From: Methanoculleus frigidifontis
GTDB taxonomy: Archaea > Halobacteriota > Methanomicrobia > Methanomicrobiales > Methanoculleaceae
Assembly: GCF_030464345.1 (NCBI RefSeq)
Contig: NZ_VCYH01000007.1
Location: 62,001-126,000 of the forward strand
Length of the DNA stretch: 64,000 bases
Direction of reading: 5' to 3'
Below are positions 45,486-50,043 of the stretch, piece by piece. The notes under the pieces were generated by a model. That model ran no database searches, was not told the origin of the DNA, and saw only the letters and a program-made list of their open reading frames with translations. Positions within the stretch are counted from its first letter, which is position 1. Each line of letters opens with the position of its first letter. Both the position numbers and the translations under genes were made by a program.

Positions 45486-46246
45486 ACCGATTCCGTCTCC
45501 GGGTTGTGAATCTCACGCTTCAGCCGGTCGATGGCTGCCATAACGGCGGCGAATGCCTCCTGCCGGTGCTCTGCCAGTATAGCAAGATAGGTTATATCTT
45601 CTCCGGCATACAGTCTCCCTTTCCGGTGGTGGAAGCGGACGCCGATGATCCCCTCGACGCCCTCCATATCCTTTCTGATAGACTCCATCGTCGCATCGAT
45701 GCTGTCGTCGAAGTCCATGTAATCGGTCCGTTCGTCGCCGGAATATTCGCGGACGATGCCGTTGAAGGTGAGGATCGCGCCTGCCCGGGAGACGTCGCAC
45801 GCCGCTTTCAGTTCTTTCACCAGCCCCTCGATGGTGTAGTAATCCTCGAAGCGATCGAGGTCTGCGATGACATCCTCAACGGTCGGGTTTCGCAGCAGGA
45901 CGTTCTCGGCGGCAAGATCGCCCATGACAATCTTCGGGAACGGTTTCGATTTGAGCCCTTCGATGATGGCGTACTCGATCCCTGCGTCGCAGAGGAGATG
46001 GAGCGCCTGGTCGAGGTCGGAGTCCCCGATCACGAAGACGGTCTTCTCTTCATCGATACCGCTTGCTATAGCAGCCCCCGCTTCATAGTACGCGGTCGTG
46101 TCTTTTCCGCCCTCCATGGCAAAGGTATGGTGGCCGAGGTGTTTGACCGCACCGACGCGGCCGCGTGTGCTCAGTGCCGCGATGAGGTCGCGGGCAAAAT
46201 ACGTCTTGCCGGTGTTCGAGAGCCCGACAATATGGATGACCTTCAT
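45482..46246 (-). CDS. MobB-MoaE fusion (molybdopterin cofactor synthesis)
   Basis: A 254-residue fusion. Residues 1-130 are a MobB-like P-loop domain (IVGLSNTGKTYFARDL, GAVKHLGHHTF), which helps attach GMP to molybdopterin. Residues about 140-254 match MoaE, the large subunit of molybdopterin synthase (AGAILTFNGIVREYSGDERTDYMDFD, GVRFHHRKGRLYAGEDITYLAILAEHRQEAFAAVMAAIDRLKREI). Methanogens need this cofactor, with W or Mo, for formylmethanofuran dehydrogenase. It overlaps both flanking genes by 4 nt. Confidence 0.9.
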   Translation of the reverse strand: MKVIHIVGLSNTGKTYFARDLIAALSTRGRVGAVKHLGHHTFAMEGGKDTTAYYEAGAAIASGIDEEKTVFVIGDSDLDQALHLLCDAGIEYAIIEGLKSKPFPKIVMGDLAAENVLLRNPTVEDVIADLDRFEDYYTIEGLVKELKAACDVSRAGAILTFNGIVREYSGDERTDYMDFDDSIDATMESIRKDMEGVEGIIGVRFHHRKGRLYAGEDITYLAILAEHRQEAFAAVMAAIDRLKREIHNPETESV

Positions 46247-46803
46247 GATGATTCCTCTTCCTCATGCTCTTCTGCAGTCTCTTCTTCGGCGACGCCCGAT
46301 TCCGTCCGGGTCTTGAGGATGACCGAGGCCGCTTCGGCAACGCCCCGCATGACGTCGGTGATCCGATCCTCGATATCGATCTCGTCGTCGATCTCGAGCG
46401 CCGTTCCCTCGACCTCCAGGAGGAACCTGGCGACTTCGCTCGCCTCAAAGAGGATCTCGTCGAGCTCGTCGGCGGTGAAGAACCCGCACATCGCCCCGTA
46501 GAAGAATGTCGCTCCTGCTTTTTTTACCTTCTTTTTGAATGCGCTGCGTGCCTGGTTCACCGCCTGGGGCGAGTAGGTGTCGAGCATGAAGGGGCAGAGC
46601 TCGGGGAGGTGTTCGCCGATGTAGGTCATCTCGGAACCGTTTATCGTCTTGAAATCCGCACAGAGGCGGGCTATCGCCCATTCCCGTGCGGTGACGTAGG
46701 TGTGTTTGCGCAGGAACTGATTGACCCGCTCATAGGTGGCGCCGTCGACCTTCTTGAATTTCTGGTACTTGTTTGGGTCTTTCTGGTCTGCTGGTTCGCT
46801 CAT
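46243..46803 (-). CDS. DUF5806-like archaeal protein
   Basis: A 186-residue soluble protein beginning QKFKKVDGATYERVNQFLRKHTYVTAREWAIARLCADFKT, which I recognise as a DUF5806-type archaeal family, and ending in a very acidic tail (EEETAEEHEEEESS). No catalytic motif is visible. It is the first gene of the DUF5806-MobB/MoaE-GlmM run, each gene overlapping the next by 4 nt. Confidence 0.8.
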   Translation of the reverse strand: MSEPADQKDPNKYQKFKKVDGATYERVNQFLRKHTYVTAREWAIARLCADFKTINGSEMTYIGEHLPELCPFMLDTYSPQAVNQARSAFKKKVKKAGATFFYGAMCGFFTADELDEILFEASEVARFLLEVEGTALEIDDEIDIEDRITDVMRGVAEAASVILKTRTESGVAEEETAEEHEEEESS

Positions 46804-46969
46804 TTTCTATTTACCCTCTGTCTGTTTTTGTATTTCAATGGCGGCGGTTTTCGGGTGCGCACTAGTGCAGCAGGATACGGTTCTGCCGGCGGCCGATCCG
46901 CCGTGCCGGGCGTCTCCGATGCGGCCCGTGCGCCGGTGGCGCAGAACGGACTGCACTGCTCTATGAAGG

Positions 46970-46990
46970 TATAGCAGCGCGTGGTTTATA
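46970..46990 (+). repeat. Short dispersed motif, copy b (TATAGCAGC..GGTTTAT family)
   Basis: TATAGCAGCGCGTGGTTTAT. The consensus TATAGCAGCAT(W)YGGTTTATCG recurs at 46867-46887 (degenerate), 47732-47751, 47803-47826, 50056-50076 (minus strand) and 50163-50182, all within 3.3 kb around the recombinase gene. Confidence 0.6.
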
Positions 46991-47731
46991 CGCTCTTCTG
47001 TTTTCGTATGCGGCTGCACAGGAGATCGCTTCCGGATGGGGCTGACTGCGTCGTATTCCCGCGAGTTCTTCCGCAGCGCCATGACCGAAGGGGGCGGTGA
47101 CCGGGGGCCTTCCGGACATTCGCGAAGATCTTTCCCGGAGTGCATACCGGTAGCACGGCCTCTTCGGCCCGGGACGTTCACGTTTCTCCTGCGGCACTGC
47201 ACGTGCCCCCGAATAGAACCGAGCAGGTTTCGGAGAGTCCGGCCGATCTGCACTGCCGTTGATCGCGGCTGGCCCGTGGATGCCTCGCTGTTTCGTGGAG
47301 CATTCCTGTTCTCCACCCGGGGTGAAAGCGGGCTGCCCGTCTGCCGGGATACCGTTTCTGTGGATCTGCCCCGCGGTGTTCGCGGCGCCGCCGACACTAT
47401 GGGGGCGGGGCGTTTTCTGCAAAACCCGCGCCGACGGTACGGCAAGGCTTGTTTGCGGAGCTGGATTCGGTTTCACGGTGTGCCGGCCCGGAGGCCGATT
47501 CTCCATCTCCGAAACCTGTCCGGGTGCGGTTCCGTGTCTGTCCAATACTTCTCTCCTCATCCATCTTTCGGTCATGGTGCCGGTCTGGATGTCCCGACTT
47601 CCGGGTATGGGTGGGCTCTCGCTCTGGCGCCGGTCCTCCTTCGGGTAGGTTCTCTCCGGACATTCGGTCGGCTCCGTGTCTTCTGTTTTCTGGCTGCCTC
47701 CGGCATTGAGGTTACAGCGGCGGTTTTCCCA

Positions 47732-47751
47732 CTGCAGTATTCGGTTTATCG
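47732..47751 (+). repeat. Short dispersed motif, copy c
   Basis: CTGCAGTATTCGGTTTATCG, sharing the GGTTTATCG half and the GCAG half of the motif. It is followed by a GACCGGCC sequence similar to the GACCGTCC after copy d. Confidence 0.5.
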
Positions 47752-47802
47752 ACCGGCCGTGCGGCGGCGGGAGATCGATCGACGATCCCTTCATCGTGAA
47801 CG

Positions 47803-47826
47803 TATAGCAGCATATGGTTTACCGAC
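47803..47826 (+). repeat. Short dispersed motif, copy d
   Basis: TATAGCAGCATATGGTTTAC followed by CGAC. Upstream GAACG resembles the GAAGG before copy b, so the shared unit is slightly longer than 20 bp. Confidence 0.6.
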
Positions 47827-48687
47827 CGTCCGATCCGGGCTGCATCGCGATCCGATCTCGTCCGCGATCTGCCGATCGGGCGCATCGCAGCACGTTTCGA
47901 TCCTGCTATGGCTGCGTGGCCATCTCCTTTTCTCTGGCGGTCCCTCCCTCCGCGATCTGATGGCCCGGAATCGGCCTGCGCGTGAGGTTCCCGGAAGCGA
48001 ACTGAAACTATTTCGGAGGTTGGCTGGATCTGCGCTGCCATTTCCGGGTGATTCCCGGATCTGCGTGGGGGTGCCCCCTGTCGCTCCTCTCCGCATGCGA
48101 TCTGCCCCTCCAGCCTCCGGCCGGGGCAGCCTTAGACGCATAAATGCAGGAACCGCCTGCATGAGGGGTGCCGGGTGTTTCCTGGGGCACTGCCGAAGCG
48201 TGCTGTGATCCGGATTCTCGTCTTCGATCTCTGAACGCCTGTGCGGCGAGGCTTGCGGTTCGGCATTCGTCCGTGGGTTTCGGGCGGCGAATCGGAGAAT
48301 TGCTTTCGCTTTTCTTGCGTTTTCCTTTGTCAATTCTCGAAATGTGCCCTTTTTGCCCTGCTCGGCTTTCAGGCAGTTCAACGAGCGAACGGGCGATCTT
48401 CTTCGGTCTTTCCGTGTCGCGAGCTCTTTCTCCCTGCCCGGTCCTGAGATCTCCCTTTGCTCTGTGGGGATCGCTCCACCATTTCCGCCCCGTCACAATC
48501 GAAACCCGGATCGCGGAACGTCGTCGTCATTCGGTGGACGCCTCGTCTTTCCCGCTCGTCCCGTCCCACTCGGCCTGCTCCGGAAACACGTCCTCATATC
48601 GCCTCTCTAACGCCGGATCTCCTTCTCGCCCATAGTCAGGTTCATCCGTACCGCCGATCTGCCCTCTATCGGCTTCTACAGCGATCG

Positions 48688-48697
48688 TTTATATATG
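48688..48697 (+). promoter_or_regulatory. Strong TATA box in the gene-free zone
   Basis: TTTATATATG is an excellent archaeal TATA box. No coding frame follows at a suitable distance. The predicted transcription start, about 27 nt from its centre, is 48719, exactly where a 10-bp hairpin begins. Confidence 0.55.
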
Positions 48698-48715
48698 GGC
48701 GGCAGGAGCCTCTCG

Positions 48716-48820
48716 CGTCGGAGCGAAACGTCTCTGCCGGCACCCGATCACTTTCGCTCCGCACGGCCGGGAATTATTATCCCGGGCGTGAATTCTCTTT
48801 TCGGGGTCCTTCCCCGGGAT
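48716..48820 (+). ncRNA. Candidate structured non-coding RNA
   Basis: Three hairpins follow a strong TATA box. Hairpin 1 pairs CGGAGCGAAA (48719-48728) with TTTCGCTCCG (48752-48761). Hairpin 2 pairs CCGGGA with TCCCGG around an ATTATTA loop (48767-48785). Hairpin 3 pairs CGGGG with CCCCG around TCCTT (48802-48816). No open frame fits. I do not recognise a known RNA family (SRP and RNase P motifs were not seen). The true ends are unknown. Confidence 0.4.
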
Positions 48821-49065
48821 CCCAGGGCGACGGCCCATACCTCCTAAACTTCGAATGAAACCACGATCAACTCCGTTCCGGCCATCCCATTCTTTTTCGC
48901 GGGATGGGTGTGAATCTCTTCATACTCCCTGCTTTTTGGCGTTTCTGCTGCCGAACCGATGTGCAGTATCAGATGCGCGGCACGGCTGTATCGTGACGGC
49001 GCACCACGGCGGGCAGGCGCCCGGACTGCCCTGTTCCGAATCCGGCGTTCGGCTGCGCCGGCAAG

Positions 49066-49091
49066 TGTCGCAGAACAGATATTCTGCGACA
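49066..49091. promoter_or_regulatory. Perfect 10-6-10 palindrome upstream of the recombinase (possible dif-like site or operator)
   Basis: TGTCGCAGAA-CAGATA-TTCTGCGACA: two 10-bp arms match perfectly around a 6-bp centre. Arm and spacer sizes resemble Xer/tyrosine-recombinase core sites. It also abuts the AAATTTATGT TATA element (49091-49100) of the recombinase gene, where a regulator could bind. Both readings are possible. Confidence 0.6.
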
Positions 49092-49125
49092 AATTTATGT
49101 GCGTTGGAATTTAACCAATTAAACG

Positions 49126-50043
49126 ATGGAAAACGGCTTTTTCGAGGAATGGCTCAATCGCTTCGCATACTACCTCCGGATGCGGAATTACTCGCCGAAA
49201 ACGGTCGAAAGCTACGACCAGACGGTCCGGCAGTTCGCCCGCTACGTCTGGCTCCGCCGGTCCGCCGACGGCGATGCCGTGTCATACGACGAGGATGATT
49301 TTGCGCACGCACGGCTCGATGCATCCGTCGCAGTCACGCCGGCACTGGTCACGGACTTCCTCTCCTACCTCGCCGGGCAGGGGTATCAGCCGCGGACGCT
49401 CCACCGCGTGATCTCGACGCTCTCGTCGTTTTACTCCTATCTCTACGCGCAGGGCGCCGTTCCGGCAAACCCGATGCTCGGCACGGAGCGGCCCCGCATC
49501 AAGAATCAGGAGCTCAAATACCTGAAGCACAGCCAGGTGCTCCGGCTCATCAACACCATCGAGGATGCCGAGGACCGTCTCATCGTGCGGCTGATCTACG
49601 CCACCGGCGTCCGTGTCTCCGAGCTCTGCACTATCGACGTCGAGGATATCGATTTCGAGGAGCACACCATCCGCGTCAAAGGCAAGGGCGACAAGATCCG
49701 GGTTGTCTTCATCGACGAGGAGACGCTCGCCGAGGTCGAGCAGTACATCGGCAATACGATCGTCGGCCCACTCTTCGTCGGCCAGCAGGGCAAACACATC
49801 TCGCCCCGCACGGTGCAGCGGATCTTCAAAAAATACGCGCCCGACGGGATCACGCCGCACAAACTCCGCCACTCCTACGCGAGCGAACTCTACCGCCGCT
49901 CCAAGAACCTCCGCGTCGTGCAGGAGAATCTCGGGCACACCTCGATCAAAACGACCGAGATCTACCTCCATACGGACATCGACGAGCGTAAACGCGTGTA
50001 TCGGGAGTTCTTCCCCCTCTCGAAGAACGATCGCACTGAGTGA
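49126..50043 (+). CDS. xerA: Tyrosine site-specific recombinase, Xer type
   Basis: A 305-residue recombinase. The N-terminal SAM-like core-binding domain (FFEEWLNRFAYYLRMRNYSPKTVESY) is followed by the catalytic domain with R163 (TGVRVSEL), K186/K188 (KGKGDK), H245 and R248 (HKLRHSYASEL), H271 (LGHTSIKTTEIY) and the nucleophile Y280. The compact length and lack of an insertion fit XerA, which resolves chromosome dimers, more than a phage integrase. A TATA element at 49093-49100 puts the transcript start within a few bases of the ATG, so the message is near-leaderless. It lies alone among repeats and non-coding DNA. Confidence 0.92.
   Translation: MENGFFEEWLNRFAYYLRMRNYSPKTVESYDQTVRQFARYVWLRRSADGDAVSYDEDDFAHARLDASVAVTPALVTDFLSYLAGQGYQPRTLHRVISTLSSFYSYLYAQGAVPANPMLGTERPRIKNQELKYLKHSQVLRLINTIEDAEDRLIVRLIYATGVRVSELCTIDVEDIDFEEHTIRVKGKGDKIRVVFIDEETLAEVEQYIGNTIVGPLFVGQQGKHISPRTVQRIFKKYAPDGITPHKLRHSYASELYRRSKNLRVVQENLGHTSIKTTEIYLHTDIDERKRVYREFFPLSKNDRTE

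Follow-up and report, generated by a model that had tools for sequence, protein, structure and literature searches.

A predicted small RNA gene with a repair-gene promoter motif in Methanomicrobiales and its possible action on ftsZ

Does the long noncoding region upstream of xerA encode an RNA and, if so, what would drive its transcription and what might it act on? The question is raised by one spot in the window, by which we mean the whole 64-kb stretch of DNA analysed here. An original prediction placed a strong TATA box, a transcription start at 48719 and three hairpins at this spot, and read them as a candidate structured RNA not yet annotated, with its promoter. Conservation, covariation and the identity of the promoter uphold the core of that reading, but both the promoter and the extent of the gene were misplaced.

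The window belongs to an archaeal genome, G000 (3.17 Mb, 30 contigs). In a search with xerA, its closest named relatives are Methanoculleus and other Methanomicrobiales. The spot lies in a 2322-bp gap between a DUF5806 gene and the divergently oriented xerA (Table 1). This divergent pair with its long gap (0.9-1.6 kb) is kept in Methanoculleus, and is also present in most Methanoregula-type loci with a contig spanning both genes. By DNA similarity the block is clear in one of 60 relatives searched (G001, same genus, E 6.5e-26). Much of the gap aligns poorly between G000 and G001, and the best-kept parts are the box of the original prediction (TATA1), 48747-48830 and 48837-48898. A multiple alignment of 19 Methanoculleus gaps contains a single conserved island, the rest being unalignable except for the two ends of the gap and a 22-bp motif. 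The island runs from TATA1 through TTCACTTTCnCCCCGCGCGGTAaGGGgTTCATATAC, about 25 nt, GGGTYTGC-hairpin-GCAGCCC, CATACCTCCTAAC and CTGCATCACC to a T-run, and the order of elements is identical in the homologues of G003 (locus L076), G039, G044 and G088; DUF5806 and xer adjoin the homologue in G003, G044 and G088. As a conserved block in otherwise unalignable intergenic DNA, the stretch is, on the evidence of these alignments, not a product of chance in evolution.

Other features of the gap were noted. The noncoding DNA (46804-49125) has far more T than A on its plus strand (AT skew about -0.3), as do most Methanoculleus gaps. A palindrome with perfect 10-bp arms (TGTCGCAGAA-CAGATA-TTCTGCGACA, 49066-49091) lies about 60 bp 5' of xerA and is followed by a TATA-like box; it occupies the same place, with changed arms, in G001 and most Methanoregula-type loci, and reads TTGCGGGGAATAGGCATTTACCGCAA in Methanoculleus. 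Its layout (11-bp arms, 6-bp centre) resembles that of a Xer (dif) site, and it may be an operator or a recombination site. The 22-bp motif, near TATAGCATCATATGGTTTAT, flanks xerA and the noncoding region at 46970, 47730, 47803 (+), 50055 (-) and 50161 (+), the typical layout being a plus-strand copy close to the start of DUF5806 and a minus-strand copy past xerA. All 51 loci scanned have at least one match with up to five mismatches, and four of the five hits to its 16-bp core in the G000 genome fall in the xerA/noncoding region.

Table 1. Features in and around the candidate RNA gene, as positions in the window.
Feature	Position	Strand	Basis or remark
DUF5806 gene	46243-46803	-	Pfam PF19122, E 8.7e-71, and synteny; conserved divergent upstream neighbour
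TATA1 (TTTATATATGGGCG), box of the original prediction	48688-48701	+	Kept in 17/19 Methanoculleus loci and G001
Hairpin 1	48719-48761	+	Not conserved
Promoter element, GNTCACTTTCnCnCCGCRCGG type	48747-48766	+	Alignment A4, matrix scan; common to radA and RPA promoters
Hairpin 2	48762-48790	+	Spans second TATA-like box
Second TATA-like box (GGGAATTATTATCC)	48769-48782	+	Alignment A4; at the place of TTCATATA / TTTATAT in homologues
Proposed small RNA, about 100 nt, ends approximate	48800-48898	+	Homology to A3/A5 RNAs
Hairpin 3, GGGGTCC/GGGATCCC	48803-48823	+	Fold; site of the covarying hairpin in Methanoculleus RNAs
Segment complementary to cdrS stop / ftsZ Shine-Dalgarno junction	48839-48862	+	23/24, odd pair G-U
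T-run CTTTTTC, likely terminator	48892-48898	+	T-runs of at least 4 in 19/19 Methanoculleus loci
xerA (archaeal tyrosine recombinase)	49126-50043	+	NCBIfam NF040815.2, 305.8 bits against a cut-off of 220; conserved downstream neighbour

Several of the elements first described are present as stated. TATA1 occurs as TTTATATATG, its sole copy on both strands of the 64 kb, the 10-bp perfect inverted repeat lies at 48719-48728 and 48752-48761, and all three hairpins form when 48700-48840 is folded. That fold is modestly better than chance (z -2.0; 7/200 shuffles as stable), and 48688-48820 falls in the lowest 16% of 1908 stretches of the same 64 kb as raw value and in the lowest 1.6% after G+C regression. 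Hairpin 1 is among ten perfect 10-bp inverted repeats with loops of 3-30 nt in the window, and its arms, complementary at 10/10 positions here, are so at 5-7/10 in 24 other loci (6/10 in G001). Its 3' arm is part of a conserved promoter motif and its 5' arm is exclusive to the window. Hairpins 1 and 2 overlap this motif and a second TATA-like box near 48773, which belongs to the conserved gene, and only hairpin 3 falls inside the RNA. Archaeal start sites lie about 27 nt downstream of the TATA box, and from this general spacing we infer an RNA start at about 48800, not at 48719. The range originally marked, 48688-48820, excludes the best-conserved part (48837-48898). An RNA made from TATA1 at about 48719 and containing all three hairpins is improbable: hairpin 1 is unconserved, hairpin 2 covers the second promoter and TATA1 is absent from the four further homologues (G003, G044, G039 and G088). 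TATA1 is kept in G001 and in most Methanoculleus loci, and a longer transcript may also exist, with TATA1 as a possible extra, upstream promoter in G000, G001 and Methanoculleus. Open frames do run through the stretch (133 aa, 48457-48858 +), but indels separate the homologous sequences, and a frame common to them was not seen. A minus-strand mini-ORF (MAGTELIVVSFEV in G000, MAVTELIVVPFIV in G001) differs at 3 of 13 residues and was not taken as coding because its codon changes are not silent.

The proposed RNA consists of a 5' hairpin, an exposed anti-Shine-Dalgarno segment, a 3' part and a T-run. The stability attributed to the region does not extend to this RNA, which taken alone (48800-48900) is unremarkable (-25.4 kcal/mol, z 0.03), and its structure is therefore argued from relatives. 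Of 199 genomes searched with model R1, trained on Methanoculleus only, 32 from genus g5 have the RNA (E <= 8.4e-14), at one place each except for a partial second place in G021; three g5 genomes (G028, G031 and G035) gave no match. In G021 (C106; L044 3088-3478) the 5' part of the RNA occurs twice around a run of N, which makes an assembly artefact the probable origin of the second copy. Over 290,666 bases the window site is the top R1 hit, though a weak one (E 0.34), and neither G000 nor G001 came up in a filtered R1 search of genomes. The training set of a second model, R2, comprised the window, G001, L076 (G003:C61) and G039, where its hits arise by construction; G044 and G088 are independent.

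In an alignment that leans to the model, 358 of 362 hairpin cells (98.9%) pair among 33 distinct Methanoculleus homologues. Two-sided changes occur in 5 of 11 pairs, a level reached by 1/500 shuffles, the covariation score is reached by 0/500, and sliding the partners by 1-3 columns lowers pairing to 29-60%. The check for compensatory changes in relatives, proposed at the outset, thus fails for hairpin 1 and succeeds for the hairpin of the RNA. Downstream of the 5' hairpin, ACCUCCUAA is exposed in the 33 homologues; ACCUCCUA has a mean unpaired probability of 0.92 in 32 RNAs, and ACCUCCUAAAC in the window has 0.92-0.99. ACCUCC is present in all full-length A5 homologues. The Methanoculleus RNA also carries a second conserved segment, CUGCAUCACC. 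Rfam returned no family for the candidate: the whole window had no match at gathering score, 48600-49120 searched up to E 10 gave merely a 7.8-bit RNase P fragment on the opposite strand, and ten homologous loci gave tRNAs only. The accessible parts of the open literature searched contained no archaeal RNA that targets ftsZ or is induced by damage, and no comparable Methanoculleus RNA. The locus is, in our view, very probably a genuine RNA gene with no counterpart in Rfam; our estimates for the RNA gene, for its damage control and for its action on ftsZ are judgements and were not computed.

Conserved DNA sites for a regulator or a recombinase in the xerA control region, with hairpins formed by chance, would account for the DNA-type character of the promoter motif and of the palindrome 5' of xerA, and would fit the ordinary stability of the G000 RNA. 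Such an arrangement is very improbable given the two-sided changes by which 33 distinct homologues retain the hairpin, beyond shuffled and slid controls, with a TATA box ahead of it and a T-run behind. We hold a cis-acting 5' leader of xerA to be just as improbable. In f1 and f4 genomes xerA does follow on the same strand, but the conserved block is closed by the T-run, the distance from ACCUCC to the xerA start varies from 217 to 670 nt in 20 loci with an unalignable spacer, and f5 genomes carry a similar promoter-RNA unit without xer within about 1.6 kb; by spacing, T-run and the f5 stretches tested, neither fixed adjacency to xerA nor continuity with it was found. In the f5 genomes (L167-L173, L175, L176 and L011) the promoter is followed by a different RNA-like body, GGAGGGA ... 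TCCCTCC and then ACCTCTCA or a variant, and the nine stretches tested (L167-L173, L175 and L176) have no xer or DUF5806. Their link to the RNA described here, drawn from promoter and layout, is a weaker one.

The promoter of the proposed RNA points to its control. A weight matrix was made from 17 small-RNA promoters only, with the maximum of 261 control upstream regions as threshold. Using tested regions of 224 nt against controls of 200 nt, the matrix exceeded all 261 controls upstream of radA in 14/14 genomes and upstream of RPA in 13/14 (G037 fails), and did so upstream of ftsZ in 0/12. In G000, radA (motif CACTTTCACACCGCATGGGC) scores 17.6 and RPA 16.4 against a control maximum of 6.7, and a matrix made without the window and G001 places its best site in the 64 kb at 48747 (20.9 vs 11.1 for the next). 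A pattern version of the motif matches in 19/23 genomes, its reversed control in none. Genus g20 has up to 12 sites of the motif per genome. They include those of radA, RPA and a putative DNA modification/repair radical-SAM protein, and a single one lies 5' of mutS. It also precedes RPA in G011 and G005, radA and Orc1/Cdc6 in G005, an Mre11-like nuclease in G044 (best model matches below cut-offs) and a Cdd1 protein in G042; several matches stand before no recognised repair gene.

In the available text of PMC2556686, four UV-B-induced genes of Halobacterium, including radA1, have TTTCACTTTCA 5' of the TATA box, and radA of Methanospirillum hungatei is noted to be preceded by a similar motif. 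The element at 48747-48766 likewise has a CACTTTC core 5' of a TATA box, common to radA of the same genome. It reads GATCACTTTCG and is not identical to the full 11-mer, and it differs from the Halobacterium motif (PMC2556686) in its longer consensus with CCGCRCGG, its order-wide occurrence and its position before a small RNA gene. Since the promoter carries the radA/RPA motif of the same order, transcription should rise with DNA damage, and the small RNA promoter is probably under damage control.

Other occurrences of the motif were followed. The idea that it is a general stable-RNA promoter was dropped because Rfam and tRNA searches of 18 motif-bearing g20 stretches gave no result. Some g20 sites (L180, L222, L225 and L240) precede stretches without a clear gene that share a string near TTTGTAACACCCC and may encode additional small RNAs under the same control. 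A protein in L213, L235 and L287 (near 13163) recurs downstream of a repair-type motif in G111, G071 and G010; by eye it has a helix-hairpin-helix-like stretch and a nuclease-like part, and the L213 copy has no NCBIfam match.

A possible target emerged from a whole-genome search of G000 with 69 bases of the RNA, which returned the RNA itself, then C1:228445 (E 1.9e-4), then a match at E 1.23. The C1 match is on the opposite strand and 24 bases long; its single mismatch is a G-U pair at the RNA level. It spans the end of a gene for a 59-aa RHH protein and the Shine-Dalgarno site of the next gene, ftsZ (TIGR00065, above cut-off). The best model for the RHH protein is CdrS, at 63.9 bits below the haloarchaeal cut-off of 100; the Haloferax locus of this type is cdrS-ftsZ2 (PMC8406309, available part).

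With the whole RNA, duplex energies set ftsZ apart from control start regions slightly or not at all in each of 12 genomes (best G000, 5/104 controls as low), and were dominated by the G+C-rich hairpin. The energies in Table 2 are for the exposed 32-nt segment against the genome's own ftsZ start region, a restriction chosen after the whole-RNA result was known. Control start regions were taken by a simple rule, an open frame of at least 120 codons with a Shine-Dalgarno-like motif, and numbered 305 (104 from G000, 67 from G001, 65 from G010 and 69 from G044); genomes without their own controls were compared with all 305.

Table 2. Duplex energies of the exposed segment with the ftsZ start region of the same genome.
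Genome	Duplex energy	Controls as low (of 305)	Own controls as low
G000	-41.7	0/305	0/104
G001	-32.4	0/305	0/67
G003	-32.1	0/305	
G044 and G039	-31.1	7/305	3/69 (G044)
G005	-26.4	4/305	
G045	-26.1	55/305	
G088	-23.9	45/305	
G010	-23.8	37/305	12/65
G011	-20.8	78/305	
G050	-19.5	79/305	
G022	-18.3	139/305	

Pairing over the ftsZ ribosome-binding site is thus predicted in G000, G001, G003, G044/G039 and G005, and is not above controls in G010, G011, G022, G088, G045 and G050; of the four Methanoculleus genomes tested it is unremarkable in three (G010, G011 and G022), G005 being the fourth. When RNAs and targets were swapped, a genome's own ftsZ was best or tied-best for the RNAs of G000, G001, G044, G039, G005 and G050, and was not best for those of G003, G088, G010, G011, G022 and G045. 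When G000 is compared with G001, both partners have changed at two positions without loss of the pair, and other changes broke or formed pairs. From these energies, swaps and changes, ftsZ as target is well supported in the genus of G000 and G001, fair in G003, marginal in G044/G039 and unproven in Methanoculleus. In f5 genomes the exposed segment is CCUCUCA and ftsZ carries UGAGAGG, a pairing that is not above controls; the change hints at an RNA that follows its target.

A real small RNA with a damage-type promoter might have its main action elsewhere: it could bind a protein, or serve as an anti-Shine-Dalgarno RNA of general or multi-target kind, with the complementarity to ftsZ a lineage-specific addition. 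The ACCUCC segment could bind many ribosome sites, and it is shared by all full-length homologues, yet the ftsZ-specific extension is absent in Methanoculleus, where the conserved CUGCAUCACC has no established partner. We consider this unlikely, though far from negligible, as the complementarity in G000 is unique genome-wide and exceptional pairing is seen also for G001 and G003, that of G044/G039 being marginally exceptional. Action of the RNA on ftsZ in this lineage is the reasonably likely alternative on the complementarity described.

The observed conservation, hairpin covariation, common promoter motif and complementarity can be joined in one model, to which, taken as a whole, we give a slight preference: a damage-controlled, trans-acting small RNA of about 100 nt that blocks ftsZ translation. 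DNA damage would raise transcription from the radA-type promoter, and the RNA is predicted to fold its 5' hairpin and leave ACCUCCUAAAC exposed. This segment and the bases that follow are complementary to the cdrS stop and the ftsZ ribosome site, and could pair over the cdrS-like stop and ftsZ Shine-Dalgarno in G000, G001, G003 and G044/G039. Ribosomes would be kept off ftsZ, FtsZ synthesis would fall and division would be delayed until the DNA was mended.

The closest known parallel is DinR of Klebsiella pneumoniae, described in the available part of PMC10907235 as a small RNA cut from the 3' end of dinI mRNA, controlled by LexA and dependent on Hfq. Control by a DNA-damage regulator, occupation of the ftsZ ribosome site and inhibition of division in damage are common to both, as predictions in the present case. 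The RNA described here would be an independent archaeal gene of unrelated origin with a predicted function (cf. PMC10907235); neither a dinI 3'-end origin nor LexA control was found, the locus standing alone with its own motif and TATA box. Because RNA, promoter and domain of life differ, it may work like DinR and is not a member of the DinR family. DicF (PMC5069750) and StfZ (PMC9628754) of E. coli are also RNAs linked to ftsZ and cell-division control, but DicF is prophage-encoded and StfZ cis-antisense, and the available parts of these sources tie neither to a repair-gene promoter motif. OxyS of E. coli similarly halts the cell cycle for DNA repair, but is a bacterial oxidative-stress RNA (PMC5793797, available part).

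The candidate bears on a wider problem. In bacteria SulA makes division wait for repair; to our knowledge, how most archaea halt division upon DNA damage is an open question. More tentatively, there could be an SOS-like RNA checkpoint across the Methanomicrobiales, in which one motif serves radA, RPA and other repair and replication genes together with a small RNA that tracks and silences cdrS-linked ftsZ. Leaving ftsZ aside, almost all Methanoculleus genomes searched would still carry an RNA family that Rfam does not match, and radA and RPA would share a promoter motif throughout the order. If the model is right, it names a regulator, a promoter motif and a target in methanogens, and a damage-controlled RNA on the ftsZ ribosome site would have arisen separately in bacteria and archaea.
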